From Candidatus Sericytochromatia bacterium (lineage in GTDB: Bacteria; Cyanobacteriota; Sericytochromatia; UBA7694), in contig JADMKE010000016.1 in NCBI GenBank assembly GCA_018780035.1, positions 124,001 through 188,000 of the forward strand: a DNA stretch of 64,000 nucleotides. The letters are read 5' to 3'. Position numbers and translations under genes: made by a program. Shown piece after piece: positions 2,211 to 60,019 of this stretch. Each line of letters begins with the position of its first letter. Position 1 is the first letter of the stretch. Under the pieces are notes generated by a model. The model searched no databases and had not been told where the DNA came from. It saw only the letters and a program-made list of their open reading frames with translations.

Positions 2211-2561
2211 CTAGGCGGCAAACATAGCTTCGGCAAGCTGGTTGGCCATTTCAACAACAGTAAGCTCAGCACGATTTTCTTTAGAGAGCTGTGCAGAAGC
2301 TCCTTTTAACGCACCCACGGCAACCGAGGGAGACAAAGCACTGCTTCCACCCAAATTGACCTGGGTGGCAGCACCACCGGCTGAACCGACGACGGAACTG
2401 ATATTGAGAATGTCTTCATTTTTAGAGGCGGAAGGTTTGCCTGAAGCACCTTGTACACCACCACTGGGAGCAGCAGTGGAACCGGCTTTTTGGGCACGAC
2501 CGGATTTGGAGACAGAAAAGTCAAATCCGCTGTTGCCTTGCAATCTATTAATGCTGCTCAT
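2211..2561 (-). CDS. Small Ser/Gly/Ala-rich protein, first gene of a putative sigma28 unit
   Basis: A 116-residue protein of unknown function. The N-terminal 85 residues are low-complexity, rich in Ser, Gly, Ala and Pro, and probably disordered. The C-terminal 30 residues (KENRAELTVVEMANQLAEAM) look like one amphipathic helix. Start ATG 2561 has GGAGG 6 nt upstream; the in-frame ATG at 2579 lacks one. A disordered chain with a single terminal helix resembles small flagellar regulators such as anti-sigma or export-related proteins, but I see no family signature and assign none. A sigma28-like promoter lies about 80 nt upstream. Confidence 0.65.
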   Translation of the reverse strand: MSSINRLQGNSGFDFSVSKSGRAQKAGSTAAPSGGVQGASGKPSASKNEDILNISSVVGSAGGAATQVNLGGSSALSPSVAVGALKGASAQLSKENRAELTVVEMANQLAEAMFAA

Positions 2562-2887
2562 GTTGTCCTCCACATACATGTCTAACTTAGTCTTCTACTA
2601 CAGTTAGTTAATTTTGGGTTAAGGTTGTTAATCTTTACATAATAACTATAGGCAGCACCCCGCAAAACTTGCGAGGGAAAACGATCTTTTAATCTTGTTT
2701 TTGAAGAAATCGATTTATTTAATAGACACATAATATTTTTAACAATCGCTCAAACCCTCTCATAGAAAGCATTTGAATTAATTAATGGGTCTATTTCGAC
2801 TTAAAAAAGTTCTTTGCTCACTTGCTGCATATTTCTGCCAAAACAGGGGTACAAGATCACAAAGAGCCTTACAAAGGAAGCTAAGCA
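2562..2887. other. Divergent intergenic region, about 325 bp
   Basis: AT-rich spacer between divergent genes. It contains the sigma28-like promoter at 2646-2672 and a small hairpin (CGCAA-AAC-TTGCG at 2661-2673). No gene or recognised riboswitch was found. The promoter for the plus-strand gene at 2888 could not be pinpointed. Confidence 0.5.
2646..2672 (-). promoter_or_regulatory. Sigma28 (FliA)-like flagellar promoter
   Basis: On the minus strand the sequence reads GCAAGTTT, then exactly 11 nt, then GCCTATAG. The known FliA consensus is TAAAGTTT-N11-GCCGATAA; the match is 6 of 8 at each element with the exact spacing. It lies about 80 nt upstream of the start at 2561 and next to a flagellar gene. 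Confidence 0.5.
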
Positions 2888-3544
2888 ATGAAAATTGATC
2901 CATCTGTACAAAAATCACATTATTTACCCATTCATTCCAAAACAGATCCGATCTCAACTTCCCAGGATTTGAATTTGAACGGGCAGGCTCAACCCGATCA
3001 GTCAGCCCAAGCAGATCAGCAAAACAGTTTGGGGACAGATCAGGCACAGGTTTCCGCTCCCAAGGCCCAGCACGGCACGGAACCCAAACAGATTCACTTC
3101 GAGACAGAATCTCCCGAGCAGGAGACACCTGCCCCCTCTGCAATGCATCTACAAGACTGGGAACGGCCCTCTGATACAGCAGAAACCCAGCAGGCCATGG
3201 ATTTTGCCAGAGAAATCCAAAATCAAAATATCCAGTCTTTATTAGATGGCATTGATCAGTCTCTGGCCCGGGCCCAAAAAATTATGCAAGAAAATCTGCA
3301 ACATTATTACACCAAAGTCAAACCGCAAATGGACGCCCTCAAAAAAGCTATTTCTGAAGAAAGAGCAGGCGAAGCAGCAACGGCCACACACGATCAACAG
3401 GCCGCCAAGAGCCAGCTCTCACACATGATCGGCGAAGTAAAAAATCAACTCTCTGCAGTGATGCAAACCAATCCTGAGCTGGCACAAGCACTGGAAAAAG
3501 CCTTGGCACAGGCTCAAACAATTAGCGAAATGCACGCTCACTAA
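2888..3544 (+). CDS. Gln-rich coiled-coil protein of unknown function
   Basis: This 218-residue protein has no signal peptide. Residues 1-90 are low-complexity and rich in Gln, Ser, Asp and Pro. Residues about 100-215 are a long charged helix rich in Gln, Ala, Lys and Glu that probably forms a coiled coil. AGGAAG sits about 9 nt before the ATG. It is divergent from the small flagellar-side genes and its 3' end overlaps the convergent M23 peptidase gene by 23 nt. I do not recognise a family. A structural or chaperone-like role is conceivable, but there is no direct evidence. Confidence 0.65.
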   Translation: MKIDPSVQKSHYLPIHSKTDPISTSQDLNLNGQAQPDQSAQADQQNSLGTDQAQVSAPKAQHGTEPKQIHFETESPEQETPAPSAMHLQDWERPSDTAETQQAMDFAREIQNQNIQSLLDGIDQSLARAQKIMQENLQHYYTKVKPQMDALKKAISEERAGEAATATHDQQAAKSQLSHMIGEVKNQLSAVMQTNPELAQALEKALAQAQTISEMHAH

Positions 3545-4466
3545 AGCGAATCCAGCTCATCCCATCGGTATTGTGACCATTGAGATAGACTCCCCAATGC
3601 AAATGGGGGCCTGTCGAGCGTCCAGTTGTGCCAATATAGCCAATCGTCTGCCCCTTTTTGACACGATCTCCATTTTTGACAGCAAGCTTGCTCATGTGAA
3701 TATAGACCGAGGTCACGCCTTGGCCATGATCCAAAAAGATCGTATTGCCATTGGAATTGTATTTTGAAAAATAGCGGGCCAAAGCCACAATCGCATTTGC
3801 AGGTGATTTGATTGGGTAGCCATGGGGAGAGGCAAAATCAACCCCAGAATGGTAACCATTGTATTTGCCATTGAGATAACGACGGGTTCCATAAGCGGCG
3901 CTCATCCGGTGAGGAACTGGCAAAATAAACGGGCTGTCCCACAGTGCTTGCTCAGTTCGTGAGATGCGGGCCTCATCGACAGATTTATCTTCTTCTGCCA
4001 CCAAAGCAGCCTGTTCTGGGTTTAATGGAGGCCGGACAAAGCGAATATACTGGGTAGAAAAAGCACCAGGCACGACCTCTAACTTATCTTTTAAAAGCAC
4101 TTGGCCATTTTCATCTTTGACCAGGATCGTATAACCACCTGGTTTGAGATCCCCTTTAATGGCCAAAAAGGCCCGGTATTTATGTTTTTTTCCGGCTTCG
4201 GTTTGACCATTTTCAAACATCAACAGCGACTGGCCCGCCACTTCCACCTTGTATTTACCAGGTTGAGAGCTTTGCAAATTCAACTCAGCAGATTGGCCCT
4301 GAACCACTTTGTTTGGAGCAATCGTAAAAACAGGCGCAAGTGAAACAGAGGGTTCAGAGCTCGCAAGAGAAGAAGGCATCACTGTTGGCGTTGTTTGTGG
4401 CAATTCCTGAGCACTGGCTGTTAGGGTCAGTCCCAGAATACCCAAACCGATTAAAAATTGTTTCAT
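3522..4466 (-). CDS. Exported M23 (LytM-type) peptidase
   Basis: A predicted exported zinc metallopeptidase or peptidoglycan-binding LytM protein. The N-terminus is a signal peptide ([19 protein letters not shown]). A beta-rich middle region (about 50-130) precedes the C-terminal M23 domain (about 195-305). That domain shows the zinc ligands: HSGVDF (H-x3-D) and HLHW (H-x-H), with the upstream YIH. M23 enzymes cut cell-wall cross-links; if the residues are functional, this one would act in the periplasm. ATG 4466 overlaps the stop codon of the upstream carboxylase gene (TGATG), which suggests translational coupling, although the two functions look unrelated. Confidence 0.85.
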   Translation of the reverse strand: MKQFLIGLGILGLTLTASAQELPQTTPTVMPSSLASSEPSVSLAPVFTIAPNKVVQGQSAELNLQSSQPGKYKVEVAGQSLLMFENGQTEAGKKHKYRAFLAIKGDLKPGGYTILVKDENGQVLLKDKLEVVPGAFSTQYIRFVRPPLNPEQAALVAEEDKSVDEARISRTEQALWDSPFILPVPHRMSAAYGTRRYLNGKYNGYHSGVDFASPHGYPIKSPANAIVALARYFSKYNSNGNTIFLDHGQGVTSVYIHMSKLAVKNGDRVKKGQTIGYIGTTGRSTGPHLHWGVYLNGHNTDGMSWIRFSERAFR

Positions 4467-6073
4467 CACATTCTAAAGACGCTAAATCGGGTATCTTGCG
4501 GAGGTGCATTAAGCGAGGACGAAATCGCCAAACCCAAAACCTTGCGGGTTTCAGCCGGGTCAATAATGCCATCGTCCCAAAGCCGTGCGGAACCAAAATA
4601 GGCGTCGCTTTCATGAGCGTAGGTTTCCAGTATCGGTGCTTTAAAGGCCTGCTGTTCTTGCTCGGTCAGGTCTTGACCTTTGGCCTGTAACTGATCGCGT
4701 TTGACAGTTAAAAGGACATTGGCAGCCTGTTCACCGCCCATCACACCAATTCTGGCCTTGGGCCACATCCAAAGAAAACGGGGGCTATAGGCCCGACCAC
4801 ACATGCCATAATTGCCCGCACCATAAGAGCCGCCAATAATCACCGTAAACTTGGGAACAGAGGTGGTCGCTACAGCTTGTACCAATTTGGCGCCATCTTT
4901 GGCAATTCCGCCGCGTTCATAGTCTTTTCCAACCATAAAGCCAACAATGTTCTGCAAAAAAACCAAAGGCGTTCCACGTTGACTGCACAACTCAATAAAA
5001 TGAGCGCCTTTAAGCGCACTTTCGGAAAACAAGATCCCGTTATTGGCGACAATCCCAACCGGATAACCCATGATTCGGCCAAAGCCACAGACCAAGGTAG
5101 GGCCATACAAAGCCTTAAATTCATGAAACTCACTGCCGTCTAAGAGGCGAGCCAAGACTTCATGCACATCGTAGGTTTGCCGTTCATCAGCGGGAATAAC
5201 ACTGTAAAGCTCTTCTGGCGGATAAAGCGGCTCCTGCGGGGGACGAATATCCAATGAAATCCGTTTGACCCGATTGAGGTTGGCGACAATATGTCGGGCG
5301 ATTTCAAGGGCTTCTTGGTCATTATTGGCCAAATGGTCAGCCACCCCAGACAATCGGGTATGTACATCTGCACCACCGAGGTCCTCAGCACTGACAACTT
5401 CTCCCGTAGCGGCTTTTACCAAAGGCGGCCCCCCCAGAAAAATCGTGCCTTGATTGCGCACAATAATGGTTTCGTCAGACATCGCAGGCACATAAGCGCC
5501 ACCTGCGGTACATGAGCCCATCACAACAGCGATCTGGGGAATATTGCGCGCAGACATTTGGGCCTGCATATAAAAGATCCGACCAAAATGCTCTCGGTCA
5601 GGGAAAACCTCCGACTGCAAGGGCAAAAAAGCTCCGCCAGAATCCACCAAGTAAATACAGGGCAGGTGATTTTCAAGGGCAATTTCTTGGGCCCGCAAAT
5701 GTTTTTTTACGGTCAAAGGAAAATAGGTTCCGCCTTTGACAGTGGCATCATTGGCCACAATCATGACTTCTTGGCCTTCAACAACCCCAATGCCAGTAAT
5801 AATACCAGCAGCAGGAACGTCTGTATCGTAGACAGAATCCGCGGCAAAGGGACTTAATTCCAAAAAGGGGGTGCCGGAGTCACAGAGTTGAGCGATACGT
5901 TCGCGGACAAAGAGCTTGCCGCGTTCTTCGTGTTTGGCACGAGCCGCCGGTGAGCCACCGGACTGAAGACCTGCCAATTTTGTCCGAAATTCGGCCACAG
6001 CCAGCCGGTAAATCTCAGCATTTTTGTGGGATTCAGAGGTATTGAGATTGAGTTTTGATTCGATGGGATACAT
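4466..6073 (-). CDS. Acyl-CoA carboxylase beta subunit (carboxyltransferase; methylcrotonyl-CoA type)
   Basis: This is the biotin-dependent carboxyltransferase subunit that moves CO2 from carboxybiotin to an acyl-CoA. The 535-residue length and the crotonase-like tandem domains fit. Motifs include [13 protein letters not shown], the [16 protein letters not shown] oxyanion region and [16 protein letters not shown] in the second half. These match the methylcrotonyl-CoA carboxylase beta subunit (leucine degradation) best, but substrate cannot be fixed from sequence alone. No biotin carboxylase subunit lies nearby. Two starts are possible: ATG 6100, or ATG 6073. I prefer 6073 because a TATACT -10 box sits 7 nt before it, as for a leaderless mRNA; neither start has a good ribosome binding site. 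Confidence 0.85.
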
Positions 6074-6253
6074 GTTTAACAGTATAACAAAACTGCTCAT
6101 CCTCTATCCGGCAAAAGCCCTTTCCATGTTAGAATTAACCCAAATAATACGATTTTCCTGAGCCTTTTCCCTCTTCTTAAAATTCAGAAGCAAAGCGACA
6201 TCTAAAATGCACCTTTGTGGGAATGCGCTCAGCAAGTAACAAGGAGTGTAAAA

Positions 6254-7333
6254 ATGCGTGTTGCAGTTGGTATGAGTGGTGGCGTGGACAGTTCTGTTGC
6301 GGCAGCCCTGCTCAAACAAGCTGGCCATGAAGTGGTGGGCGTTACGATGTTAATTTGGGATGGCAGCAAATGCTGTTCCGGTGACGCCATTGAAGACGCC
6401 GAATGGGTCTGCAAACAACTGGCTATCGAACACCATGTTTACAACCTGATTCCCGAATTTACCAAAGAAGTGGTCACACCTTTTGTCAATGAATACATGA
6501 GTGGGCGCACCCCCAATCCATGCCCCACCTGTAATTTTAAAATGAAGTTTCAGCATCTTTGGCAAGCCGTTAAAGACAATATGGAAGTTGATAAAATGGC
6601 CACCGGTCATTATGTGCGCCTTTTACACAATGCAGAAAGCAACCGCTACCAGCTTTACAGAGGCCTGGATCCCAACAAAGATCAAACTTATATGTTTTAT
6701 CGCCTCAGCCAGACACAGCTCTCTGAACTGATGTTTCCCTTGGGCCATTATCACAAAGCTGAGACACGCAAAATGGCACAAGAGCTGGGACTGGATCCAG
6801 TCATCAATAAGCCCGATAGCCAAGATTTGTGTTTTGTGGGTGATAGCCTCAACGATTTTTGGCGCAATCACTACCAAAAATCGATCAAAAGCGGTGATAT
6901 AGTTGATATTCAAGGCAATATCTTGGGCCAACACGAAGGAATTGTTCACTACACTGTTGGTCAGCGCAAAGGCTTGGGTTTGGCCCACGAACATCCCCTT
7001 TATGTGCTGAAATTGGATGCCGCTAAAAATCAGGTGATTGTAGGCCCTCGCGATCAAACCTTCGCAGACGGATTAACTGCCTCAGGCATTAACTGGTCTG
7101 CGATTTCTGAATTAAATGCCCCACTCAGAGCGCGGGTGCGCATTCGCTATCGTTCAGATCTTGTCCCTGCCTTGATTGAACCCGTCAACGAAGACAATGT
7201 GAGAATCATTTTCGATGATCCCCAAAGCGCCATTTCACCTGGCCAGATCACTGTTTTCTACGATGAACAGGACATGTTATTGGGCGGGGGCGTAATTGAA
7301 CAAGCTCTGATCCTGACCGAAGCGCTGGCCTAG
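6254..7333 (+). CDS. mnmA: tRNA-specific 2-thiouridylase MnmA
   Basis: MnmA adds sulfur to U34 of tRNAs for Lys, Glu and Gln in the cytoplasm, using ATP and a persulfide donor. The PP-loop GMSGGVDSS is at residues 6-14. The two catalytic cysteines are in place: Cys93 in NPCPTCN and Cys193 in SQDLCFVG. HYTVGQRKGLG marks the second domain. The 359-residue length is normal. ATG 6254 is chosen because AAGGAG lies 7 nt upstream. The following oxygenase-like gene starts 5 nt after the stop, so the two may be co-transcribed. Confidence 0.96.
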   Translation: MRVAVGMSGGVDSSVAAALLKQAGHEVVGVTMLIWDGSKCCSGDAIEDAEWVCKQLAIEHHVYNLIPEFTKEVVTPFVNEYMSGRTPNPCPTCNFKMKFQHLWQAVKDNMEVDKMATGHYVRLLHNAESNRYQLYRGLDPNKDQTYMFYRLSQTQLSELMFPLGHYHKAETRKMAQELGLDPVINKPDSQDLCFVGDSLNDFWRNHYQKSIKSGDIVDIQGNILGQHEGIVHYTVGQRKGLGLAHEHPLYVLKLDAAKNQVIVGPRDQTFADGLTASGINWSAISELNAPLRARVRIRYRSDLVPALIEPVNEDNVRIIFDDPQSAISPGQITVFYDEQDMLLGGGVIEQALILTEALA

Positions 7334-7338
7334 GTGCC

Positions 7339-8436
7339 GTGTCCGAATCAGCGCAATACTGGCTTCAAACCGGGCTTCGGGCTTTGGCCCAAGAAAATTA
7401 TACCCATGCAGCACAGTGCTTAGAGAAATCGCTGTTTGAGCGACAAGGCAAGCCCTGGAATCGCTGCTCCTTTGCTGAGCAAGCTATTTTTTTTGAACGG
7501 TCCTGTACTGTTCCAGACGCTTTGCCCTTGCATAAACTGCATCATGACTTGGCACAATTGGACTATCTGCTCAGCACCCAAAAGTTGCCACTTCCCGTTT
7601 TTGCTCAGGTTCAAGCCAACTTAGAACGCGTTATCCAATCATTGGCAGAACGCTTTCCCAAATGCGCGTTGACAGAATTGCTAATGTTAAGCCCGCAAGA
7701 ACAAGACCTATTGCGTCCCTTCTGGGGACGGCTGTTGTATTTTGAATCTGCTCCTCCATTTGAGGGGCCTTTTTTTTCTGAGTATTTAGACAGTGAACGC
7801 ATTTCCTGGTCTTACCAGCACAATCAACCTGGATTTGCTTTTGCCGATCAGATTTTATCACTGCCTTTGCTTGAAACACTGAGGAGTTTTATGCTCAGTT
7901 CCACAATCTGGCATGATTACCAGCGAGGAGGATATGTGGGCGCCTATCTGCCGAATGGATTTTGTACCCCTCTTTTATTGCAATTGGCACAAGAATTGAG
8001 AAAAACATTTCCCAAAATACTGGGCCCATACCCGCTCAGCTTGATGTGGGGGTATAAGTACGATTCCCAACATCCAGGTGTGGGTATTCACGCCGACTCT
8101 GGTGGGCAGGTCAATGTCAATTTTTGGCTCACACCCGATGAAGCCAATTTAGAACCCGAAAGGGGGGGGTTGATTGTCTACGATGTCATGGCTCCTGATG
8201 ATTGGGATCCACGCAAGTACAACCTCGAAGATATCGTTCAAGGCCCTTGTAAAGCGTACACAGTTCCCTATCAATATAACCGGGCTCTGTTTTTTAATTC
8301 AGGCCTGTTTCATGCCTCTGATCAGTTCAAATTTCAACCGGGTTATCTTCAACGCAGGCTCAACCTGACAATGCTCTTTGGCATTCGCAATAAAAGTGCC
8401 GAAGAGCAAAAACTTCTACACTGGGTATCTGTCTAG
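7339..8436 (+). CDS. 2OG-Fe(II) oxygenase-like protein with an N-terminal TPR-like helix pair
   Basis: The C-terminal half (about 155-350) looks like a prolyl-4-hydroxylase-type dioxygenase. The iron-binding HADSGG (H-x-D) lies in a strand-rich region, a distal FHASDQF supplies the second His, and QRRLNLTMLFG supplies a basic residue for 2-oxoglutarate. The first 40 residues resemble a TPR helix pair (ALAQENYTHAAQCLEKSLF). Such proteins hydroxylate protein or small-molecule substrates; the substrate here is unknown. The GTG start at 7339 lies 5 nt after the mnmA stop, with AGGTG overlapping that stop. Alternatively it is an inactive member, but all three putative metal ligands can be placed. 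Confidence 0.72.
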   Translation: MSESAQYWLQTGLRALAQENYTHAAQCLEKSLFERQGKPWNRCSFAEQAIFFERSCTVPDALPLHKLHHDLAQLDYLLSTQKLPLPVFAQVQANLERVIQSLAERFPKCALTELLMLSPQEQDLLRPFWGRLLYFESAPPFEGPFFSEYLDSERISWSYQHNQPGFAFADQILSLPLLETLRSFMLSSTIWHDYQRGGYVGAYLPNGFCTPLLLQLAQELRKTFPKILGPYPLSLMWGYKYDSQHPGVGIHADSGGQVNVNFWLTPDEANLEPERGGLIVYDVMAPDDWDPRKYNLEDIVQGPCKAYTVPYQYNRALFFNSGLFHASDQFKFQPGYLQRRLNLTMLFGIRNKSAEEQKLLHWVSV

Positions 8437-45121: not shown

Positions 45122-47041
45122 ATGAAACGCTCACTGTTCTTTACCGGCATTGCCCTCAGCTCTTCTCTCCTCATTTCTGTTCCCGTTTGGGCAGAAACAG
45201 CTTCCAAGCAATCAGCACAACAGGTAGCACCAGAATCTACATTTCGGTTTATTGACCCAAACCCTGCGGCAACCGCTAATTTTGGTTGGGGGCGTTTCAG
45301 ATTGCCTTCTCTGCGTATAGATATTGGCAGCACAGTTCCTGTCGATAAATCCATTCAAGACTTTACCTCGCTTGGCAGCTCTTTGAGCAGCTTAACCAAT
45401 GCCCTGCTCAAAGGCGAAACCACCAGCAATGAAACTGCCACCAGCACCAAAAATCAGCTTGCAAATGCTTTGGCTCCCTTTCGCTCAGGAGCGCGCTTGG
45501 ATTATGAAACAGAGGTTGCTTTGGTCAGTTTTGCAGGATCTCCATTTCCTGGCTTGCAAATTGCCAATCGCCCCCTGAGTTTGGGTTTACATATTGGCGC
45601 AGAAACACGTGGTTACGTCAATGCCCAGTTTTCCCAAGAGTTTAGCAATAGCCTGACCACCCTCAGCGATAGCTTGCCTGGCTTGCTCACAACAGCGAGT
45701 ACCGTTGCAGGTCTCACCACCAATGCAAATCAATTGACCACACAAACAGCCCAATTAACTGGAAACATTACCCAATTGGTGAGCGAAGGCAATCAATTGC
45801 TGCAAAGCCCCTCTTTGCAGCAACTCAACACAGTCACCAGTCTCGCAACACAGGTTTCTGGCAATGTAGATCAATTGCTGACACCCGCCCGCAGTTTGAC
45901 CAAAGCAGTCACAGACAGCACAGCGACCGCCCAAGGGCTTTTAAACGCTCTGAAAGGCGCTTCGTCTGGAGGAATCAGTTTCGACAGTGCCAACGACTTG
46001 CACGTGACAGTATCACTCTCAGGGGCCTATCCGGTCTATGATACACCTGATGTCAAAATCTCCGTGGGCACCAATCTCAAATTGTTTTTGATGCCTTTTA
46101 ACGTGCCTTTTCGCAGTTTGGGACTCAACAGCGATTCCTCTGTCATGGGCCAAATCAAAGTCACCGAATTTAAGGGGCTGCAAAACTTAGATGGCATTCA
46201 AACCACCTTAAACAGCCTGAATACAGCTGCGACAGATGTCAATAAATTGATAACAGAAGCAGAATCCGTCAAAACCCAATTGGATACCGCCAACCAAAAT
46301 TTAAGTAGCAACAATATTGCTGCGATTGCCACTCAGGTTCAACCTCTACTGAATTCTGTGACAAGTGCCAATCAAACCCTGCAAACAACCCAACAGAGCA
46401 TCAATTCAGCATTGCAAAACGTCAACAATATCCAACAGACCCTCAGCACTGAATTGCAGCAAGTTTCCCTCAAGGGCAGTATTACAACTCCAGGCGGGGC
46501 AGGCTTTGGTTTGGATTTAGGTATCAATGCAATTCTCTATCGCAATCTGCGCCTTAATTTGAGCCTGCAAAACCCCTTGGTGCTGTGGCAGGGCACCGAA
46601 CGCCCCTTTGAAGCAAAGATGGCCAATGGCACCTCGGGCCAACCCCAGCCTTCACTCAGCTTTCAAGATGATCAGGCCAAATCCGTCAATTATAATGCCA
46701 CTGTTCCCCTGGCACTCTTGTTAAATGGCAGTTATAGCTTTGATGAATTATTGCCCCAATTTCAAGGGCTCTCCCTCAAGGGTATGTTTGAATTTGTCAA
46801 CAATGGTCGCACACCAGGCCTCACTCTCGGCTTGCAAAAACAAGTGGGAATGGGTTATTTCGGTGTAGGTGGCCGTGCAGGCGGAATCAGCTCGATGATC
46901 TACGGAGAAGCTGGTCTGCGCTTGCTGGGTAATTTTGGACTGGATCTGCAATTGGGTGTCTCTCCTGCTGGCACAGGCATTCCTGCCCCTGGTATGAGCT
47001 GGTTGAACAGCGCCATTGTGGGCATGTACCTCCAGTTTTAG
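45122..47041 (+). CDS. Exported protein with coiled-coil and beta-rich C-terminus, probable outer-membrane
   Basis: A 639-residue protein. Signal peptide (LLISVPVWA), then a region about 45-180 with strands, a long Thr/Leu/Gln-rich heptad region (about 180-280) and a second heptad region (about 355-445). The C-terminal 190 residues are alternating strands ending in an aromatic residue (YLQF), as in outer-membrane barrels. No family is recognised. Its function could be a porin or adhesin; this is inference from shape. Promoter and ribosome binding site (AAAGGAAA) are clear. The next gene starts on its stop codon (TAGTG). Confidence 0.7.
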   Translation: MKRSLFFTGIALSSSLLISVPVWAETASKQSAQQVAPESTFRFIDPNPAATANFGWGRFRLPSLRIDIGSTVPVDKSIQDFTSLGSSLSSLTNALLKGETTSNETATSTKNQLANALAPFRSGARLDYETEVALVSFAGSPFPGLQIANRPLSLGLHIGAETRGYVNAQFSQEFSNSLTTLSDSLPGLLTTASTVAGLTTNANQLTTQTAQLTGNITQLVSEGNQLLQSPSLQQLNTVTSLATQVSGNVDQLLTPARSLTKAVTDSTATAQGLLNALKGASSGGISFDSANDLHVTVSLSGAYPVYDTPDVKISVGTNLKLFLMPFNVPFRSLGLNSDSSVMGQIKVTEFKGLQNLDGIQTTLNSLNTAATDVNKLITEAESVKTQLDTANQNLSSNNIAAIATQVQPLLNSVTSANQTLQTTQQSINSALQNVNNIQQTLSTELQQVSLKGSITTPGGAGFGLDLGINAILYRNLRLNLSLQNPLVLWQGTERPFEAKMANGTSGQPQPSLSFQDDQAKSVNYNATVPLALLLNGSYSFDELLPQFQGLSLKGMFEFVNNGRTPGLTLGLQKQVGMGYFGVGGRAGGISSMIYGEAGLRLLGNFGLDLQLGVSPAGTGIPAPGMSWLNSAIVGMYLQF

Positions 47042-49151: not shown

Positions 49152-49925
49152 CTATTCTCGCCCTGAGAAATCCTTTTCCATATCTACCAATTGGTTTTCA
49201 ATTAAAGTATAAACATGTTCAATCAGCTCTTCTTTATTGGCAAAAGAAGGGTAAGTCGCCGGGTCAAGTGGAGCCAAAAAAGCCACCTCAATTAAACCGG
49301 GTCTGACCACTTTCACACCAGGGGGCAGGGCCTCATAACTGCCCCGCACACAAAAGGGAACAATCGGCAGACCCGATTCCAAAGCAAAGACAAAAGCCCC
49401 TTTTTTAAAAGGAAGCATTTTACCATCGCGGGTACGTGTCCCTTCTGGAAAAAAAATCACCTGTTGCTGGTGCTTTAACAATTGCTCTGTTCCGGTCTGA
49501 ATACTGGCAATGGCTTTCTCACTGTTCTTGCGGTCAACAGAAATATGGCCAAAGGCCCGCATACCAGGCCCCAAAACAGGAATTCGAAACAGTTCTTGTT
49601 TAGCAACAAAAACCGGGGGGCGAGGCAAATATTTCATCAAAACCAAAATATCAAACATGCCTTGGTGATTTCCCACCAAAACAGCAGGAGTAGCTGGTAA
49701 ATTTTCCATCCCATAGAGCTTAACCTCCATAGCCGAAGCCCATAAAATCCAACGGGCCCAACAAACAGAAGCCCACTCAGACCATTTAAGTGGCCCCCTA
49801 AAAAGGGTAAAGATCATGACCAAGATGCCAAAAATAAACGTCGCAAGCGCAGCATGAAAAGAAGCATAAATAAACCACCCATTGAGGCGAGGCAAGGAAG
49901 CTGCGCTTGGGCGGTTGATGTTCAT
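49152..49925 (-). CDS. 1-acyl-sn-glycerol-3-phosphate acyltransferase (PlsC-type)
   Basis: Makes phosphatidic acid from lysophosphatidic acid at the inner membrane. An N-terminal hydrophobic segment (about 15-40) precedes the acyltransferase motifs NHQGMFD (HX4D box variant, about 91-97) and FFPEGTRTRDGKM. The 257-residue length is normal. ATG 49925 lies 12 nt after the sepF stop on the same strand. The window also contains a decayed plsX, so the first acylation step must be done elsewhere in the genome. Confidence 0.92.
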   Translation of the reverse strand: MNINRPSAASLPRLNGWFIYASFHAALATFIFGILVMIFTLFRGPLKWSEWASVCWARWILWASAMEVKLYGMENLPATPAVLVGNHQGMFDILVLMKYLPRPPVFVAKQELFRIPVLGPGMRAFGHISVDRKNSEKAIASIQTGTEQLLKHQQQVIFFPEGTRTRDGKMLPFKKGAFVFALESGLPIVPFCVRGSYEALPPGVKVVRPGLIEVAFLAPLDPATYPSFANKEELIEHVYTLIENQLVDMEKDFSGRE

Positions 49926-52806: not shown

Positions 52807-54390
52807 TCACTGCCTTTTATGTCTAACAGATTGCCTAACAGAAGCCTGACGAACCCAGGCCTGAATTGCAGAGCTATTTCCCTCCGTAGACAACCAATTC
52901 AAAAAATAATCCTGAAAATCGCAGTGCTCTCGTTCCAATTGTAAAGCTGAAACAGAGAGATCCAAGACTGACTCTCGGTAAATACCAACAAGATGACCCA
53001 GCAAATAATTAAAATAACCCATTTTTAGGCAATTTAAATTGAATTCCAAACCGGGGATCCAGGTTTGTCTGGGAGACAGGTTCCCTGGATCTTTTAAATG
53101 CTGAGCCGACATCAATGAAAAGCCCAAATAATTGTAAGGTGTTGGTTTAGGGGCAATAGCATGTCTATATGCCGTATGAATACCGTGGTATAAACAGTGG
53201 ACAGATCCACTGCCATCTCTCAAGATGTCCAGACCAGAAAAATAGACCCTGTGATCAGAATAGTGCAAACGCAGTCCCAGAGTTCCCAAAGGCAAAGAAG
53301 TGTCTCTTCGGGCAAAATCAAGCAAACTTTCTAAAGCTCCTGCTTGTGGCAAAATCCGGGAATCCCAAACCAATACCCACTCAAATTGTTCCAACTGGAC
53401 AAAAGGCAAAACTTGAGTGAGCGCAGAGCCCAGCGAAAAATCACGCAAACGAAAAGGCATGGGATGCCAAGAGACAGTCCCCAATGGAACGCATCCATCT
53501 CCCGGCCCAAGCGCTGTACCAGCGTAAAAAACAGAGACCGTTGGGTTGTTTAAACCCGACAACAATTTCAGACATGGCTCCAAAGCTAGATCTGGTGCCA
53601 AATGCAATAAAATAATCGCGAGTTTTTTTTGCCCCAATTGCATTTTTTCTAAAAGGGGAAATTTCAACAAAGAAAAAGAGGGTTGCAAAGGGAGGTGTTT
53701 TTGGTATTTTTGGATCGTTAATTGGCGATAGTGATCAAATTCTCGATCTACAGTTCCAGTTGACAAATGTTTTAGCTTGATATCGGTCATCACGCCGTTT
53801 TTCCGGGGCTTTGGCCCCCTTTGATGAGAAAGCCAATTATCCAATGTCAACTGAACATCATAAAAATGGAAGCCCGACAATTGCGGATTAAAGCGGACAT
53901 CGGTTCGCTCTTGATGCAAAGCCAAAAACAAGCCATCCAAAGTCACAGATTCAAGTAAGTATGTGCCCAAACGACCAGAAAAATCACTGAGAAAGGATTG
54001 ATTTGTAACCGGATCTTGGTGCCAAAGATGACCCAGCATATTTTGAGGGGGAGCCCAAGCCACAGCATGTTCTTCCAGCCCAAGAGAGCCTGCCACCCCC
54101 AAAATTGCAAATTCAGGGTTGTGTTGAAAATGGCGAATCACTTGTCTGCCCCAACCTCGGTTGCGGGAAAAAACCAGATCGTCATGCAAAAGACAGACTA
54201 TTTGAAAACGTGCTTGAACCAAAAATTGGTTATATACCTCAGCAAGAGACACTCGACCAGGGTTGTAAAAAAAAAGCAGTTGAACCCGAGACACACCCAC
54301 TGTCTGCAATAAATGCTGAGCATAACGCCGGATAAAATCGGGAGAGCGCCGGGTACTCACCCCCAAGGTCAATCCATGACGACGCAGCAT
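52807..54390 (-). CDS. Large glycosyltransferase, StrF-like N-terminal half and second GT-A-like half
   Basis: A 527-residue soluble protein. The first 250 residues resemble the StrF/GT2-like glycosyltransferase family: FLVQARFQIVCLLHDDLVFSRN with the DD box, then GFHFYDVQLTL. The second half (about 265-520) has a similar pattern, LEQFEWVLVWDSRILPQAGAL, and could be a second glycosyltransferase domain. Sugar donor and acceptor are unknown. It starts directly after the patatin gene stop. Single-chain double glycosyltransferases occur in capsule or LPS pathways. Confidence 0.68.
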   Translation of the reverse strand: MLRRHGLTLGVSTRRSPDFIRRYAQHLLQTVGVSRVQLLFFYNPGRVSLAEVYNQFLVQARFQIVCLLHDDLVFSRNRGWGRQVIRHFQHNPEFAILGVAGSLGLEEHAVAWAPPQNMLGHLWHQDPVTNQSFLSDFSGRLGTYLLESVTLDGLFLALHQERTDVRFNPQLSGFHFYDVQLTLDNWLSHQRGPKPRKNGVMTDIKLKHLSTGTVDREFDHYRQLTIQKYQKHLPLQPSFSLLKFPLLEKMQLGQKKLAIILLHLAPDLALEPCLKLLSGLNNPTVSVFYAGTALGPGDGCVPLGTVSWHPMPFRLRDFSLGSALTQVLPFVQLEQFEWVLVWDSRILPQAGALESLLDFARRDTSLPLGTLGLRLHYSDHRVYFSGLDILRDGSGSVHCLYHGIHTAYRHAIAPKPTPYNYLGFSLMSAQHLKDPGNLSPRQTWIPGLEFNLNCLKMGYFNYLLGHLVGIYRESVLDLSVSALQLEREHCDFQDYFLNWLSTEGNSSAIQAWVRQASVRQSVRHKRQ

Positions 54391-55608
54391 TTAAACGCTA
54401 TTTGCAGAGGCAGCCAAACGATTCTGATAGTCTTTTAAAACTTTGGTACCGGTTTCATATCCCAGCGCAACATAATCTTTTAAAATTCGGATCCGGTCTT
54501 GACGATAGAGACCCGCAAAGGGATCTCCTTCTAAATTGATAGGGGGCTCAATCATGACAATTTCAACTTCGCGTTTGTTTAAAAAGCTATCGACACTGCT
54601 AAAACCGGCCACCTGTAAGAGTGCCTGATTAAACTCACTCTCACGCAAAATCTGACCTGAATCATCAGTCTTTAGCAAGGTCCTCAAAAGGCGAATGCGC
54701 TCATTGATTTGCTGAATTTTGCGAAAATCATTGGCCAGATCTTTGTTTAAAATAATTTTATAAATTTGATCCACCACGGTGAGCAAATTATCCAAGCGCC
54801 CTGAAGTGGGTTGGGTGATGGGCATCGAAGAAACGAGAAAAATGGTACGCACCCGTGGATCCAATTTAATCGCTCTGCCAAAAGGGCCATTTTTGGTTAG
54901 GCCTCCATCCGTATAAAAATCTGTTTTGCCGTTAATTGACAAAGGTACAGGCGGAAAAACCCCTGGAAAGCTACCAGAAGCCTGAACCACTTTGCGCAAA
55001 AACTCAAACTCTGAAGACATTTGTTCAGAAGTTTGCTCTGGATGAAAGTGAAACGAAAGATAGCCCCCATAGCTCACCAAAGGCTGCTCAGCATAGGTTT
55101 CAATCGCCCCAGTTAAACTGGTCACCGCTGCAGAAAAATGAATTTCTTTTTTAATTTTTTCAGGGGGCTGCAGGGTCTGTTCCAATTGCTGCTTTAAGTG
55201 TTTATCACTCAAAATAGAGGTGAATTTCAACTTAAAAAACTCTTTGATCCAACCCGCATTGGCAGGGGTCAACCACATCAATAGACGGCGCAACATAAAA
55301 ATGCTTAAACGCACGTCTCCGACCAAGCTTCGCAAGGAATTATCTTGAATTTCACCATAAGCCCAAAGTTTTTGAATACTGGCTTGATAGAGCCACATAT
55401 TGACCATGGTTTGTTCTACATCGCGGGGTGTAAAGCGATCTTCCATGATCAAACGGGCAGCAAAAGCGCCATTTAAAGCACCTGCAGAAGCCCCCACAAT
55501 CACAGAGGGAACAATGCCCTGTTCAGCAAAACTTTTCATCACCCCAGCATGAAAAGCACCTTTGGCAACGCCACCGGTTAAAGCAATGGCACAGGGCAAA
55601 AGGGTCAC
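54391..55608 (-). CDS. Patatin-like phospholipase
   Basis: A 405-residue lipid acyl hydrolase. The oxyanion hole TGGVAKGAFHAGV and the nucleophile elbow GASAG (Ser41) are at the N-terminus. The catalytic Asp is in FYTDGGL (about 236). These make a Ser-Asp dyad. The C-terminal 150 residues are helical. GTG 55608 overlaps the upstream TPR gene stop by 4 nt (GTGA), so they are coupled. No signal peptide is seen, so it acts on the cytoplasmic side or is exported by another route. Confidence 0.88.
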   Translation of the reverse strand: MTLLPCAIALTGGVAKGAFHAGVMKSFAEQGIVPSVIVGASAGALNGAFAARLIMEDRFTPRDVEQTMVNMWLYQASIQKLWAYGEIQDNSLRSLVGDVRLSIFMLRRLLMWLTPANAGWIKEFFKLKFTSILSDKHLKQQLEQTLQPPEKIKKEIHFSAAVTSLTGAIETYAEQPLVSYGGYLSFHFHPEQTSEQMSSEFEFLRKVVQASGSFPGVFPPVPLSINGKTDFYTDGGLTKNGPFGRAIKLDPRVRTIFLVSSMPITQPTSGRLDNLLTVVDQIYKIILNKDLANDFRKIQQINERIRLLRTLLKTDDSGQILRESEFNQALLQVAGFSSVDSFLNKREVEIVMIEPPINLEGDPFAGLYRQDRIRILKDYVALGYETGTKVLKDYQNRLAASANSV

Positions 55609-56072
55609 TTCGTGCGCTCCTGAATCCAGTTCAAGACTTTTTGAGCTTCGGCATAATCGGATCGACGCTCCACAGCCTCGGTCAAATTATCAATTACCTC
55701 TTGTAAATCTTCCTGGGTTTGGCACTTATCTAAGGCCTTTAAAAACTCAGGTCGCACACCACTCACACCATTGACCAACATACCCAAAACCAAATTAAAA
55801 TGGGCCTGATAATTGGCCGGTTCCAGTTTAACAGCCTTAACAGCATAGTTTAAACCTTTGTCAGCATCTTCTTCCTGATTGCGTAACAAATGCAGCCAGG
55901 ACAGACAGGTATACCCAGTCGCATCTTTAGGAGAGAGGATAAGCCCTTGCTCAAACAAAGCAATCACCTCTTCCAAAGAGCCTTTTTCCTCGTACAAAGC
56001 CAGTCCTGATTCATAGGGGTGTTTGGGTGTTTCGGCTTCTGTCGTGATCAATGATTCCTGCTGTAAGCTCAT
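55605..56072 (-). CDS. TPR-repeat protein
   Basis: A 155-residue helical protein with about three tetratricopeptide motifs (VIALFEQGLILSPKDATGY, GLNYAVKAVKLEPANYQAH). TPR proteins are scaffolds; the partner is unknown. It overlaps the patatin gene, so that enzyme is a plausible partner. It lies just downstream of the plsX remnant. Confidence 0.8.
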   Translation of the reverse strand: MSLQQESLITTEAETPKHPYESGLALYEEKGSLEEVIALFEQGLILSPKDATGYTCLSWLHLLRNQEEDADKGLNYAVKAVKLEPANYQAHFNLVLGMLVNGVSGVRPEFLKALDKCQTQEDLQEVIDNLTEAVERRSDYAEAQKVLNWIQERTK

Positions 56073-56104
56073 CTTAATACCTCAATACGTGTCATTTATT
56101 TTAC

Positions 56105-56707
56105 TCAATTTTCTAAAATAATCTGTGTATCATGTACCAATTTGCCAATCATGGTACCTCGGAAAACCTGCATAAAAAATGCAACAATACCCTCTGCCAA
56201 TTTTAGCAACAAATGACCAACAAACCCATCACTTACGGTCACATCAACGGTTCCTCGGATCAAATCCCAACCTTCAAGAGTGCCCTAAATAGAAAGTGAG
56301 GCACAGAGCACAATCAGCTCATTTAGGTATTGCTTGAAAAGGAGGTGGTTAGGTCTTGTTTGGATATGAGCGGTCACAGCCATGCGCTCAAATAAAGAAA
56401 GCTGTTTAAAAAATAGCTTTCACAGAGGCACTCAGCTTCACGGAAACCCAAATAAAGGCATTCGATTTTGCGAAAAGGGCAGGCACAGGAAGCCCATTCA
56501 TCCCAGTAACATCTGTTGCAGGAACCAAAGAAACACACGCCATATCAACAATTTCTCTTTGGAGCAACGCGTTTAATGTGGGTACATGGCCTGTAAAAAA
56601 AGACGAATATCAGAAAACTGCCGGAGTGCTTCAACGGCACCCCGGACAATTTCTAATGGAGTGCGATCTCCACCCATTGCATCAAGAGCAATGTGATACA
56701 AATCCAC
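56105..56707 (-). pseudogene. plsX: Decayed plsX (phosphate acyltransferase)
   Basis: PlsX makes acyl-phosphate for phospholipid synthesis. Three fragments of the family can be read on the minus strand. The first (56707 to about 56590) reads IALDAMGGDRTPLEIVRGAV, the PlsX N-terminus. The second, in another frame (about 56573-56410), reads ATDVTGMNGLPVPALFAKSN, like the middle of PlsX. The third, back in frame one (about 56287-56105), reads RGTVDVTVSDGFVGHLLLK, like the C-terminal region. Stops (TAA, TAA and TAG) separate them, and the whole is about 600 bp against about 1,000 for an intact gene. It starts 11 nt after rpmF, the usual plsX position. Confidence 0.88.
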
Positions 56708-56718
56708 TTGAAAAGATA

Positions 56719-56907
56719 CTATTTATCAGCAGAAGCGGGTTTAAAAACTTCACGCCCTTTATAATATCCGCAACCGGGACAAACGACATGGCTGGGCTTT
56801 TTATCGCCGCACTGATTACAAATAACCAGTGTGGGAAGTACAGCTTTCCAATGTTGACGACGGCTGTTACGTTTAGAACGGGATGTTTTCTTTTTTGGTT
56901 GTGGCAT
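56719..56907 (-). CDS. rpmF: 50S ribosomal protein L32
   Basis: A 62-residue L32. It begins MPQPKKKTSRSKRNSRR and has the zinc site C-x2-C...C-x2-C (CNQCGDKKPSHVVCPGC). It lies between yceD and the plsX pseudogene, the standard yceD-rpmF-plsX order. AAGG lies 7 nt upstream of ATG 56907. Confidence 0.95.
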   Translation of the reverse strand: MPQPKKKTSRSKRNSRRQHWKAVLPTLVICNQCGDKKPSHVVCPGCGYYKGREVFKPASADK

Positions 56908-56974
56908 AGATCAGCCTTGGCGGTCAGGAAAACCACCAACCTCCTTTTTTATGGTAATGAATTTTCTTGGTTTA

Positions 56975-57535
56975 TCACTTGGACTTGTCAACTTCCCAGG
57001 ACTGAACCGCCTGTCGAATGGATTCCCAAGCAGGATCGATAGGAAGGGAGTCGTCTGGGTTAGAGTCCAGATTAGATTCTTGATTGACGTTTGCCAAATG
57101 TTCATTATAACAGGTTTCGGAGCTTAATTTTTGAGCTGGTAAATTCAAAATAATATACTGCCGAACCAACTCCTGCAGGTCCAATTCTTCCTCAGGCAAA
57201 ATTTGCTCATGGCTATCGTCCGTCAATTCAGCCTCTTCTAAATAGGTATACTCCGGAACAACCTCCATAATTTCTTCAAAAGAAAAAGCCAAGGTTGTAT
57301 CAAAAGGTTGAAGTGTGCGGTCACAGAGCAATTGCAAAGTAACATCTACTTTGCCTTGACAGAGCAAGAGACGGGCCTGGAGCTCTACACGAATCTCACC
57401 GCTGATCTGATGGACGGTCATATCCGGGTCGTCAAACACCCCCGGAGGAACACACAAATCAAAAACAGCTGTCTTTTGAGGCAATCGAGAGAGAGCAGAA
57501 GGCGCAATGGCTAGTTTTTCATAATGCTGAGTCAT
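56975..57535 (-). CDS. yceD: YceD/DUF177 family protein
   Basis: A 186-residue protein of the DUF177 family, implicated in 23S rRNA accumulation. The core shows GEIRVELQARLLLCQGKVDVTL and the CDRTLQPF box, followed by an acidic EEEL..ELVRQYIILNLP segment. It precedes rpmF, as in most bacteria. The last 45 residues are an Asp/Asn/Ser-rich extension. No Shine-Dalgarno is visible. Upstream, 57540-57561 holds an 11-bp tandem repeat (CTGAATCAAAT) and 57578-57598 a TTAGG-N5-CCTAA-N1-TTAGG motif. Confidence 0.85.
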   Translation of the reverse strand: MTQHYEKLAIAPSALSRLPQKTAVFDLCVPPGVFDDPDMTVHQISGEIRVELQARLLLCQGKVDVTLQLLCDRTLQPFDTTLAFSFEEIMEVVPEYTYLEEAELTDDSHEQILPEEELDLQELVRQYIILNLPAQKLSSETCYNEHLANVNQESNLDSNPDDSLPIDPAWESIRQAVQSWEVDKSK

Positions 57536-57644
57536 AATACTGAATCAAATCTGAATCAAATCAAGAATTTAATAAAATTAGGATAAACCTAAGTTAGGGT
57601 AACATTCCTTGGGGCGATCTTCAAGCAGAATCACATCGTTGCGC

Positions 57645-59003
57645 CTAAAGAACTTCATCAAAGAAAGAAAAAACCTTTGCCTTGACCCGTTGCCAAGCTG
57701 AAAACGACTTGCTGTCATAAGGGGCCAAGGCATGGCGATTGTGCTCGAATAGGCGGTCTTCAACAATTTTTGTAAAACCTGCATCGGTAACAGAAATATT
57801 CAATTCTTGGTTGTTTTCGAGTGCCCGTGTGTCAAAATTGGTGGAACCAATCGTGGTCCAAACACCATCAATCGTCATTAATTTGCCATGTGTGAAGACT
57901 TTTTTATCTTCACCGGGATCTACCTTAAACACTTTGCCACCTGCTTTGACCAAACGCTCAGCATTCTGCTGATTCAAAACCTCGTGGATCGGGTTGTCAC
58001 TGACACCCGGCAAAAGGACGCGAACCTCGATCCCTCGGCGGGCAGCAGCAATCAGTGCTTCAATGACATCGGGATCAGAAAAATAGGGCTGGACCACATA
58101 AACATGGTGTAAAGCCGACTGAATAGCACTGATAAAGGCATTCTTGCTATCTTTTTCTTTACCTGGTTCTTGGGGACTGGTTACGGTTACTCTGGTAGCA
58201 GAAGTTCCAAATTTCATGCCAACTGGCAGTCGGGGCAAAACAGCAGGAACCTGTCCTCCAGCATGTTTCCAATTCTGAAAGAATTCAGTTTGCATCTCTT
58301 GAACTGATTCACCTTGTACCGCAGCCATTAAGTCATGCCATTCATACTGATACTCATCACCAATATTCATGCCACCCGTAACGCCTTTATAGCCATCCAC
58401 TAAAACCAATTTACGGTGAGTGATATTGACGTTTTCCCAATCAAATAATTTTTTATTATAGAGTTTTACATCTACGCCATTTTGCTGGAGAAACTTAACC
58501 ACTTCACCAGATTCATTGACCTGGCCCATGGCATCCAACAAAAGTTTGACATCTAAACCTTGTTTTTTCTTGGCAACCAATTCATTGGCAAATTCCCAGC
58601 CCGTCTTATCACTGTGGAAAAGAAACATTTCAACATAAACAGCTTGTTTGGCAGAGCGAATATACTCTTTCATTTTGTCAAAGGCCTCTTTGCCGTCGAC
58701 CAAGAGTTCCACGTGATTGTTGTAGGTATTTTGGGTGCCTGTGGCTTTATCAACCGCACGGTTGATACTGCTGGCGGAAGATTGAATCTGAAGCAATTGA
58801 ATGGGAGCCATACGGGTTTGACCAGCAACATTCAAATCGAGCCGATCGCGATTAAAAACCTGCCCTGGCGGCAATAAACCACCGGGATTACTGGGTTGTT
58901 GAGGCAAAAAAGGACGCTGCAATTTCAAATGCTGGGGTGAATTGTATTCATCCCATTGTTTGACAAATCGCGACACATATTGATTTTGCAATGCGTTAGG
59001 CAT
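57645..59003 (-). CDS. Phospholipase D-like protein (cardiolipin synthase type)
   Basis: A 452-residue PLD-superfamily enzyme with both HKD motifs: HRKLVLVDGYKGVTGGMN (about 205-225) and HGKLMTIDGVWTTIGSTN (about 370-390). Cardiolipin synthases join two phosphatidylglycerols; this one lacks the usual N-terminal membrane helices, so it may be peripheral or hydrolytic. The first 60 residues are polar. ATG 59003 has GAGGGAG 6 nt upstream. A weak hairpin with a T-run near 57578-57592 may end it. Confidence 0.85.
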   Translation of the reverse strand: MPNALQNQYVSRFVKQWDEYNSPQHLKLQRPFLPQQPSNPGGLLPPGQVFNRDRLDLNVAGQTRMAPIQLLQIQSSASSINRAVDKATGTQNTYNNHVELLVDGKEAFDKMKEYIRSAKQAVYVEMFLFHSDKTGWEFANELVAKKKQGLDVKLLLDAMGQVNESGEVVKFLQQNGVDVKLYNKKLFDWENVNITHRKLVLVDGYKGVTGGMNIGDEYQYEWHDLMAAVQGESVQEMQTEFFQNWKHAGGQVPAVLPRLPVGMKFGTSATRVTVTSPQEPGKEKDSKNAFISAIQSALHHVYVVQPYFSDPDVIEALIAAARRGIEVRVLLPGVSDNPIHEVLNQQNAERLVKAGGKVFKVDPGEDKKVFTHGKLMTIDGVWTTIGSTNFDTRALENNQELNISVTDAGFTKIVEDRLFEHNRHALAPYDSKSFSAWQRVKAKVFSFFDEVL

Positions 59004-59128
59004 ACTCAACTCCCTCGGTAAACACCGATTCTGATAAGGAGTTTATAGACTAAAAAATAATAATACTGACGCTAAGAAATGGTTAACTTTTCATTACTGA
59101 AAGCCAAGAATTTTTAACCTAGAACCCA

Positions 59129-60019
59129 TCATGCATCACGGTATCTGCCGATTTTGAGGTATTGACCAATATTGGCATTGGGATAGATCACAGGTTGGAT
59201 ATGAGTGCTTGATGCCGTAATTAAGGTAGTTACCCCAGGGCCATGCCCGGCTGTATACGAATCGGTATGGCAGACCACCCCGATTGTCATCGCCCCTTTG
59301 AGGAAGGACCAGCCATAAAAAGACTTATAATCCATTAGCGCCACGACATCACCGAGTTTCAATTTATGCAAGCCCAATTGCTCGATATACTCCCGATCTG
59401 AGGTTTGAATATCAATATCAGCTTTAAACCCATCTGTGCGCCCCAATCCTGAGCCAAGTAACTCAGCCGGAACAGTTGCCACCACAGGAATACGTAATTT
59501 TTTTTCAGCAGGATCTTCTTCGATTCCCATATTATGAAAAAGTGAAGGAGCCAAGCTCCAGATTAATACCTCAGGGTAATCTAACAATTGCAATCCCTGA
59601 CCGTAGGCCCGAATCTGGATTTTGTCCTCGTGGCTCATGACATCTAAGACTTCATCCGCAAAATCAATCATCACATGCTCACACCCCCCATGAGTTCCCG
59701 TCACAATCCCTTTGGCCCCTTTGGCTTCTCCAGATAATAGACGGGCTTCATTGCCCAGACAAGCAAAATAATTATAAGAGAGGTTTACTCCCTGCTCCCG
59801 TTTTTCAATCGAAGCAGTAGAAGAGACGCCTGGTTCAGCGTGATCGGCCACCCAGCCAAACGCACTGTCTCCGACTTTGAGGTTGTAAGTAATTCCCCCC
59901 ACACCGGGCAACATGAGACCTTGTCCATCATGAGAAACACGCCAGCCAGACGCCCCGGGATAAATCGGATTACCTTGGACGGCTGTCATGATCAATTGTG
60001 TTTCATTGGTTTTCAACAT
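59129..60019 (-). CDS. DUF4438-family protein
   Basis: A 296-residue protein that resembles DUF4438 (Thermotoga-type). It starts MLKTNETQLIMTAVQGNPIYP and contains GTHGGCEHVMIDF and the C-terminal HTDSYTAGHGPGVTTL; the His, Asp and Gly-rich segments look like an active site. Function is unknown. It starts directly at the gatC stop codon (no gap), so the two are co-transcribed. A metal- or nucleotide-binding role can only be guessed. Confidence 0.7.
   Translation of the reverse strand: MLKTNETQLIMTAVQGNPIYPGASGWRVSHDGQGLMLPGVGGITYNLKVGDSAFGWVADHAEPGVSSTASIEKREQGVNLSYNYFACLGNEARLLSGEAKGAKGIVTGTHGGCEHVMIDFADEVLDVMSHEDKIQIRAYGQGLQLLDYPEVLIWSLAPSLFHNMGIEEDPAEKKLRIPVVATVPAELLGSGLGRTDGFKADIDIQTSDREYIEQLGLHKLKLGDVVALMDYKSFYGWSFLKGAMTIGVVCHTDSYTAGHGPGVTTLITASSTHIQPVIYPNANIGQYLKIGRYRDA

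Follow-up and report, generated by a model that had tools for sequence, protein, structure and literature searches.

How does a bacterium begin its phospholipids once plsX has broken down at its standard site? This question is raised by a stretch of 64,000 nucleotides from a Candidatus Sericytochromatia bacterium (GCA_018780035.1, contig JADMKE010000016.1, forward-strand positions 124,001 to 188,000; hereafter the window), in which a preliminary description made from the letters alone had placed a plsX pseudogene, within a yceD-rpmF-plsX cluster, at 56105-56707. PMC11633183 presents PlsX/PlsY as the bacterial start of phospholipids with the widest distribution; PlsY requires the acyl-phosphate made by PlsX, and PlsB uses acyl-acyl carrier protein (acyl-ACP) or acyl-coenzyme A (acyl-CoA). 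Our analysis suggests that this lineage has lost the PlsX/PlsY route and begins phospholipid synthesis with PlsB/GPAT1-type acyltransferases. We consider both parts of this reading likely (probability roughly 0.78).

plsX is a pseudogene and the only PlsX signal in the genome

The plsX gene of the host assembly (G000; 6.47 Mb, 64 contigs, 94.8% complete) is a pseudogene. The PlsX profile PF02504 found no full-length open frame and gave just two matches in the whole assembly, both in the slot between rpmF and a gene for a TPR protein. Together with tblastn and translation, these define a relic of three pieces in two frames, all on the minus strand. Piece A (56588-56695) covers PlsX model positions 2-37 with the motif IALDAMGGD (E 3.2e-5) and was also detected by tblastn. 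Piece B (56457-56582), recognized by tblastn with the PlsX of the relative UBA7694 and by its translation, corresponds to residues 51-85 approximately and lies in the other frame. Piece C (56096-56302; positions 203-272, E 1.7e-7) contains three stops and is 59-60% identical, over 44 and 40 amino acids (aa) in tblastn, to the PlsX of UBA7694 and of a second relative, T60_A2020_004. Residues 100-203 or so are absent, with about 150 unalignable bases in their place, and similarity stops before the last ~50 residues of the C-terminus. The fragments, frames, stops and large deletion of the preliminary description were thus confirmed, with end points correct to within 12 bases. The genome-wide search that it had proposed returned the relic only, and a second plsX copy, one of the ways out it had offered, was therefore rejected; its other suggestion, a PlsB-like or unusual route, is the one that stood.

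Probable loss of PlsX and PlsY among relatives

Sericytochromatia is described in PMC8245535 as a non-photosynthetic class related to Cyanobacteria. PlsX was searched in 59 genomes, G000 included. Eighteen belong to the class (64-100% complete), and seven of these, G000 to G006, form the order. G001 is the sister species of G000 (95% complete); G002 is T60_A2020_004, G003 UBA7694, G004 maxbin_SP350_1.003, G005 LF-bin-423, G007 LF-bin-346 and G008 a Candidatus Tanganyikabacteria genome, and four of these last six are titled Candidatus Sericytochromatia. G006 and G017 are 74% and 64% complete.

The intact gene that the preliminary description had suggested looking for was found in the orthologous slot of two relatives. 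UBA7694 carries yceD-rpmF-plsX-TPR-patatin with an open plsX frame of 318 aa, and G002 carries yceD-rpmF-plsX, also open. In G001 the slot between rpmF and the same TPR gene has shrunk to 161 base pairs (bp) and holds a mere 5' scrap of plsX; in G004 it measures 141 bp. No plsX follows rpmF in G005 or G006 or, outside the order, in G013 (rpmF then fabH) and G007 (rpmF then the RNase III gene). A plsX scrap in the G004 spacer was considered and rejected, its score of 19 being equalled in 459 of 500 shuffles. This spacer (L107 5698-5838) folds into hairpins unlike those of G000 and G001 in sequence, possibly an independently gained terminator.

PlsX matches were obtained in 53 of the 59 genomes, the G000 relic counted, and in none of G001, G004, G005, G006, G007 and G013. 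PlsY, which the preliminary description had named as the usual partner, was not found in the order either. PF02660 matched 9 of the 18 class genomes and none of the seven of the order, nor G013 or G017; a profile built from the class's own PlsY hit these nine again, each at 1.7e-69 or better, and no others, so that G000 has no match to either. Within the class, eight genomes hold both proteins, G002, G003 and the incomplete G017 only PlsX, G007 only PlsY, and G000, G001, G004, G005, G006 and G013 neither. Because plsY was not found in any genome of the order, the whole acyl-phosphate route seems to be gone from it, with plsX a leftover.

A species tree built from three proteins gave ((G000,G001),(G003,(G002,G004))) beside (G005,G006). 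The most parsimonious history on this tree has a single PlsY loss, at the base of the order, and three or more losses of plsX inside it, with G007 and G013 as additional cases. We also compared 76 columns that do not vary across 26 reference PlsX proteins, a set from which G008 was excluded. The PlsX of the PlsY-less G003 and G002 deviates at 12 and 14 of these, compared with 0-7 when each reference is left out in turn, which would fit, and does not prove, a constraint lost after PlsY. At otherwise invariant motifs, the PlsX of G003 (L033 2132-3094) and of G002 (L044 2091-3059) share identical changes, EGRD to EGWD and HGSS to HGRA, and the G000 relic likewise reads EGWD. These changes may reflect either drift or a new role of PlsX without PlsY.

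GPAT-like proteins as candidate replacements

G000 carries gpsA, plsC and two GPAT-like proteins: GPAT-A (555 aa, G000:C7), which occurs class-wide, and GPAT-B (485 aa, G000:C44). Both possess the LPLAT domain (PF01553) with the HxxxxD and E/GGTRSR motifs in alignments to 9vuq and 8e4y, and their predicted folds are GPAT1-like beyond the LPLAT core. They are candidates for the sn-1 acylation of glycerol 3-phosphate (G3P), putatively acting on G3P or dihydroxyacetone phosphate (DHAP) with acyl-ACP or acyl-CoA as donor. A candidate replacement is present in each of the 10 class genomes that miss part of the PlsX/PlsY pair. GPAT-B was rejected as a general replacement outside the family f1. GPAT-A is the common denominator. 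The GPAT-B of G001 is identical over 460 columns to one of Candidatus Blackallbacteria CG17. No FabH above the curated cut-off was found in G000 (best KASIII-like protein 260 versus 292 bits), and 11 of the 18 class genomes have one.

A patchy ether-lipid operon

On G000:C18 (L092, about 2500-8104), genes for AGPS, a FAR-GPAT fusion and an NAD epimerase (SDR) follow one another in the order of MXAN_1676-1674, a three-gene operon of Myxococcus xanthus described in a review (PMC9131029); an M. xanthus contig shows the identical order. The AGPS proteins of G000 and G005 share 75% identity, and among solved structures the G005 protein best matches a peroxisomal alkyl-DHAP synthase (2.8e-171). Above 50% identity, AGPS occurs in only 5 of the 18 class genomes (G000, G004, G005, G007 and G008). 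The operon is thus too patchy to be what made PlsX/PlsY dispensable everywhere, and it was rejected as a general replacement. Being common to Sericytochromatia and Myxococcota, it may have been transferred horizontally.

Age of the relic and a hairpin element at its 5' end

The preliminary description had called the loss fresh and datable, which the comparison with G001 contradicts. An alignment of the G001 spacer spans all of the relic's first 111 bp (score 68, against at most 44 in 2000 shuffles), and the identity of the scrap rests on this alignment and on its position; direct alignments to the plsX of G003 and G002 fall within the shuffle range (312 and 81 of 500 reach the score). Aligned to the relic, the opposite strand of the spacer also reaches 48, which is to be expected for a palindromic stretch. 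Differences between relic and scrap by codon position are 8/27, 7/26 and 5/28. Since the third position is not in excess, this 5' stretch was probably non-coding during most of the interval after the divergence of the two species; no date can be given. In piece C the third position leads against UBA7694 plsX (13/43, 10/43 and 29/43), and the counts against G002 plsX are 21/46, 11/46 and 21/46.

The shared stretch (56607-56717, minus strand) forms two hairpins, at 56675-56693 and 56621-56645. Its fold energy has a z of -5.2 and -5.7 in the two species (0 of 300 shuffles each), compared with -0.8 to +0.6 for five further relic segments and -2.5 and -2.2 for the plsX starts of G003 and G002. After 30 random substitutions in either direction, 2 of 2000 sequences hold such an energy. 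Between the two species, 5 of 38 stem columns are different, compared with 25 of 68 columns elsewhere (Fisher p 0.013, the stems having been picked after inspection). In G001, seven T lie seven bases past the first hairpin, and T residues directly follow the second stem. Consensus terminator scans were no richer than shuffles (3 versus 3.2, and 1 versus 2.6). The G000 scan lists the second hairpin, with a count not above shuffles, and in G001 the scan lists a hairpin on the plus strand only, because a single A/C mismatch interrupts the sense stem. Rfam gave no match at the gathering threshold in 54000-59500, and literature searches on pseudogene-to-terminator exaptation returned nothing on point among the matches listed. 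The scrap may have been reused as a terminator for the rpmF operon, a reasonable hypothesis; as a proven function it was not accepted, because the consensus scans show no excess over shuffles. If functional, the element would cleanly exemplify how dead coding sequence can become a regulatory RNA structure.

Gene neighbourhood in the window

Of the neighbours, yceD, rpmF, the TPR and patatin-like genes and the PlsC-type gene lie on the minus strand. The cluster setting of the preliminary description was verified by yceD (56975-57535; PF02620, E 3.6e-18) and rpmF for ribosomal protein L32 (56719-56907; PF01783, E 1.3e-24). Beyond the relic follow the TPR protein (55605-56072), whose orthologue stands immediately 3' of plsX in UBA7694, and a patatin-like protein (54391-55608; PF01734, E 3.3e-21), again in the UBA7694 order. 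A PLD-like protein is also beside the relic. The PlsC-type 1-acylglycerol-3-phosphate acyltransferase noted earlier at 49.2 kb is intact (49152-49925; TIGR00530, 130.8 bits versus a cut-off of 102.95). An open frame of 639 aa at 45122-47041 on the plus strand has no Pfam match.

Discussion

Replacement of the first membrane-lipid step by enzymes resembling human GPAT1 is likely in this lineage. The class-wide GPAT-A may have made PlsX/PlsY dispensable; A single loss of PlsY at the base of the order would then have deprived PlsX of its usual partner, after which plsX would have decayed separately in several branches. GPAT-B appears to have arisen by duplication from the FAR-GPAT ether-lipid fusion present in the lineage itself, which would have given the family of G000 another G3P or DHAP acyltransferase. 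Enzymes of the PlsB/GPAT1 type would take acyl-ACP or acyl-CoA directly.

Several observations weigh against this reading. The proposed search for plsB did return the two GPAT-like proteins, but both fall far below the cut-off of the PlsB equivalog TIGR03703 (64.4 and 85.6 versus 618.5 bits). G006 and G013 have GPAT-A without GPAT-B or the fusion, so GPAT-B is not general. Of the genomes holding both PlsX and PlsY, two lack full-scale GPAT-A and six have it, so that the association alone is statistically not strong, and relatives of GPAT-A are variously named G3P or 1-acyl-G3P acyltransferases in the sources. In the species tree, support is no higher than 84-88% for two inner branches, and the trees of single proteins disagree. 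Finally, the PlsX of the PlsY-bearing G008 deviates at 10 of the 76 columns, so faster change is no proof of relaxed selection.

Other explanations account for the broken gene or for its consequences less well. With an assembly that is 94.8% complete and in 64 contigs, plsX might be intact in the organism and plsY might lie in the missing 5%. The relic, however, bears several independent lesions, and of plsX the 95% complete G001 retains no more than a scrap in this slot. These two facts make an assembly error very unlikely; as the slot is also without plsX in G004, G005, G006 and G013, and PlsY is missing throughout the order, an artefact of assembly or binning is scarcely credible. It is very improbable, too, that lipids taken up from a host or prey make G3P acylation unneeded: a core biosynthetic pair has been lost and patatin-like and PLD-like proteins adjoin the relic, but a genome of 6.5 Mb with gpsA, PlsC, KASIII-like genes and two GPAT-like enzymes speaks for synthesis of its own.

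Phospholipids might instead begin mainly through acyl-DHAP and the ether-lipid operon, as in peroxisomal plasmalogen synthesis, with G3P acylation minor. The gene order shared with M. xanthus and the peroxisomal match of the G005 AGPS favor this; we nevertheless judge it unlikely, given the restricted distribution of AGPS and the fact that G001, G006 and G013 lack PlsX, PlsY and such an AGPS alike. The GPAT-like proteins could also serve triacylglycerol, wax or ether lipids while G3P is acylated by a non-homologous enzyme or a PlsY diverged beyond detection, as the coexistence of GPAT-A with PlsX and PlsY in six genomes and the origin of GPAT-B from an ether-lipid fusion would allow. Seven class genomes lack PlsX, however, and no acyl-phosphate from it would be expected there for PlsY to use; moreover, the class profile scores strongly in the nine genomes that it matches and gave no hit throughout the order. 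We regard this explanation as quite unlikely. Returning to the PlsB/GPAT1-type start, a broader version is tentative, and we would place it somewhat below even odds: that a branch of Cyanobacteriota dropped the acyl-phosphate route, starts its membranes animal-style with GPAT1/GNPAT-type enzymes, one of them cut from FAR-GPAT, and reused the dead plsX head as a tandem-hairpin terminator for the ribosomal operon ahead.

Literature joining Sericytochromatia with PlsX was not found, most subscription journals being outside the searched coverage. For Sericytochromatia and acyltransferases, the search gave one general tree paper, and wider searches gave nothing on point among the matches listed. 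The class displays successive stages, with both proteins present, PlsX alone, a PlsX fossil, and both gone. Together with a candidate replacement in all 10 deficient genomes, these stages make the order and conditions of replacement testable, and they bear on how a cell might shift from acyl-phosphate chemistry to the acyl-thioester chemistry of eukaryotes.

GPAT-A and GPAT-B resemble Escherichia coli PlsB and human GPAT1 in acyltransferase core, motif order and predicted fold, and would share with them the use of acyl-thioesters and the product lysophosphatidic acid. They differ in length (485-555 aa instead of ~800) and in lying far under the PlsB family cut-off. The M. xanthus operon and that of G000 have all three genes and their order in common, whereas in the family of G000 the acyltransferase part also stands alone as GPAT-B. 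Mycobacteria are not known to carry PlsX/PlsY. In E. coli, according to PMC11633183, loss of both PlsX and PlsY is lethal despite PlsB, whereas here neither was found. The same paper names Xanthomonadales as the sole bacteria known to retain only PlsB/C, and PMC10593935 adds mycobacteria, with PlsM/PlsB2, as a further PlsB-type case. In both groups, as proposed here, a PlsB-type enzyme runs the first acylation; the Sericytochromatia represent another phylum with other enzyme subfamilies, in which intermediate stages of the loss are still visible.
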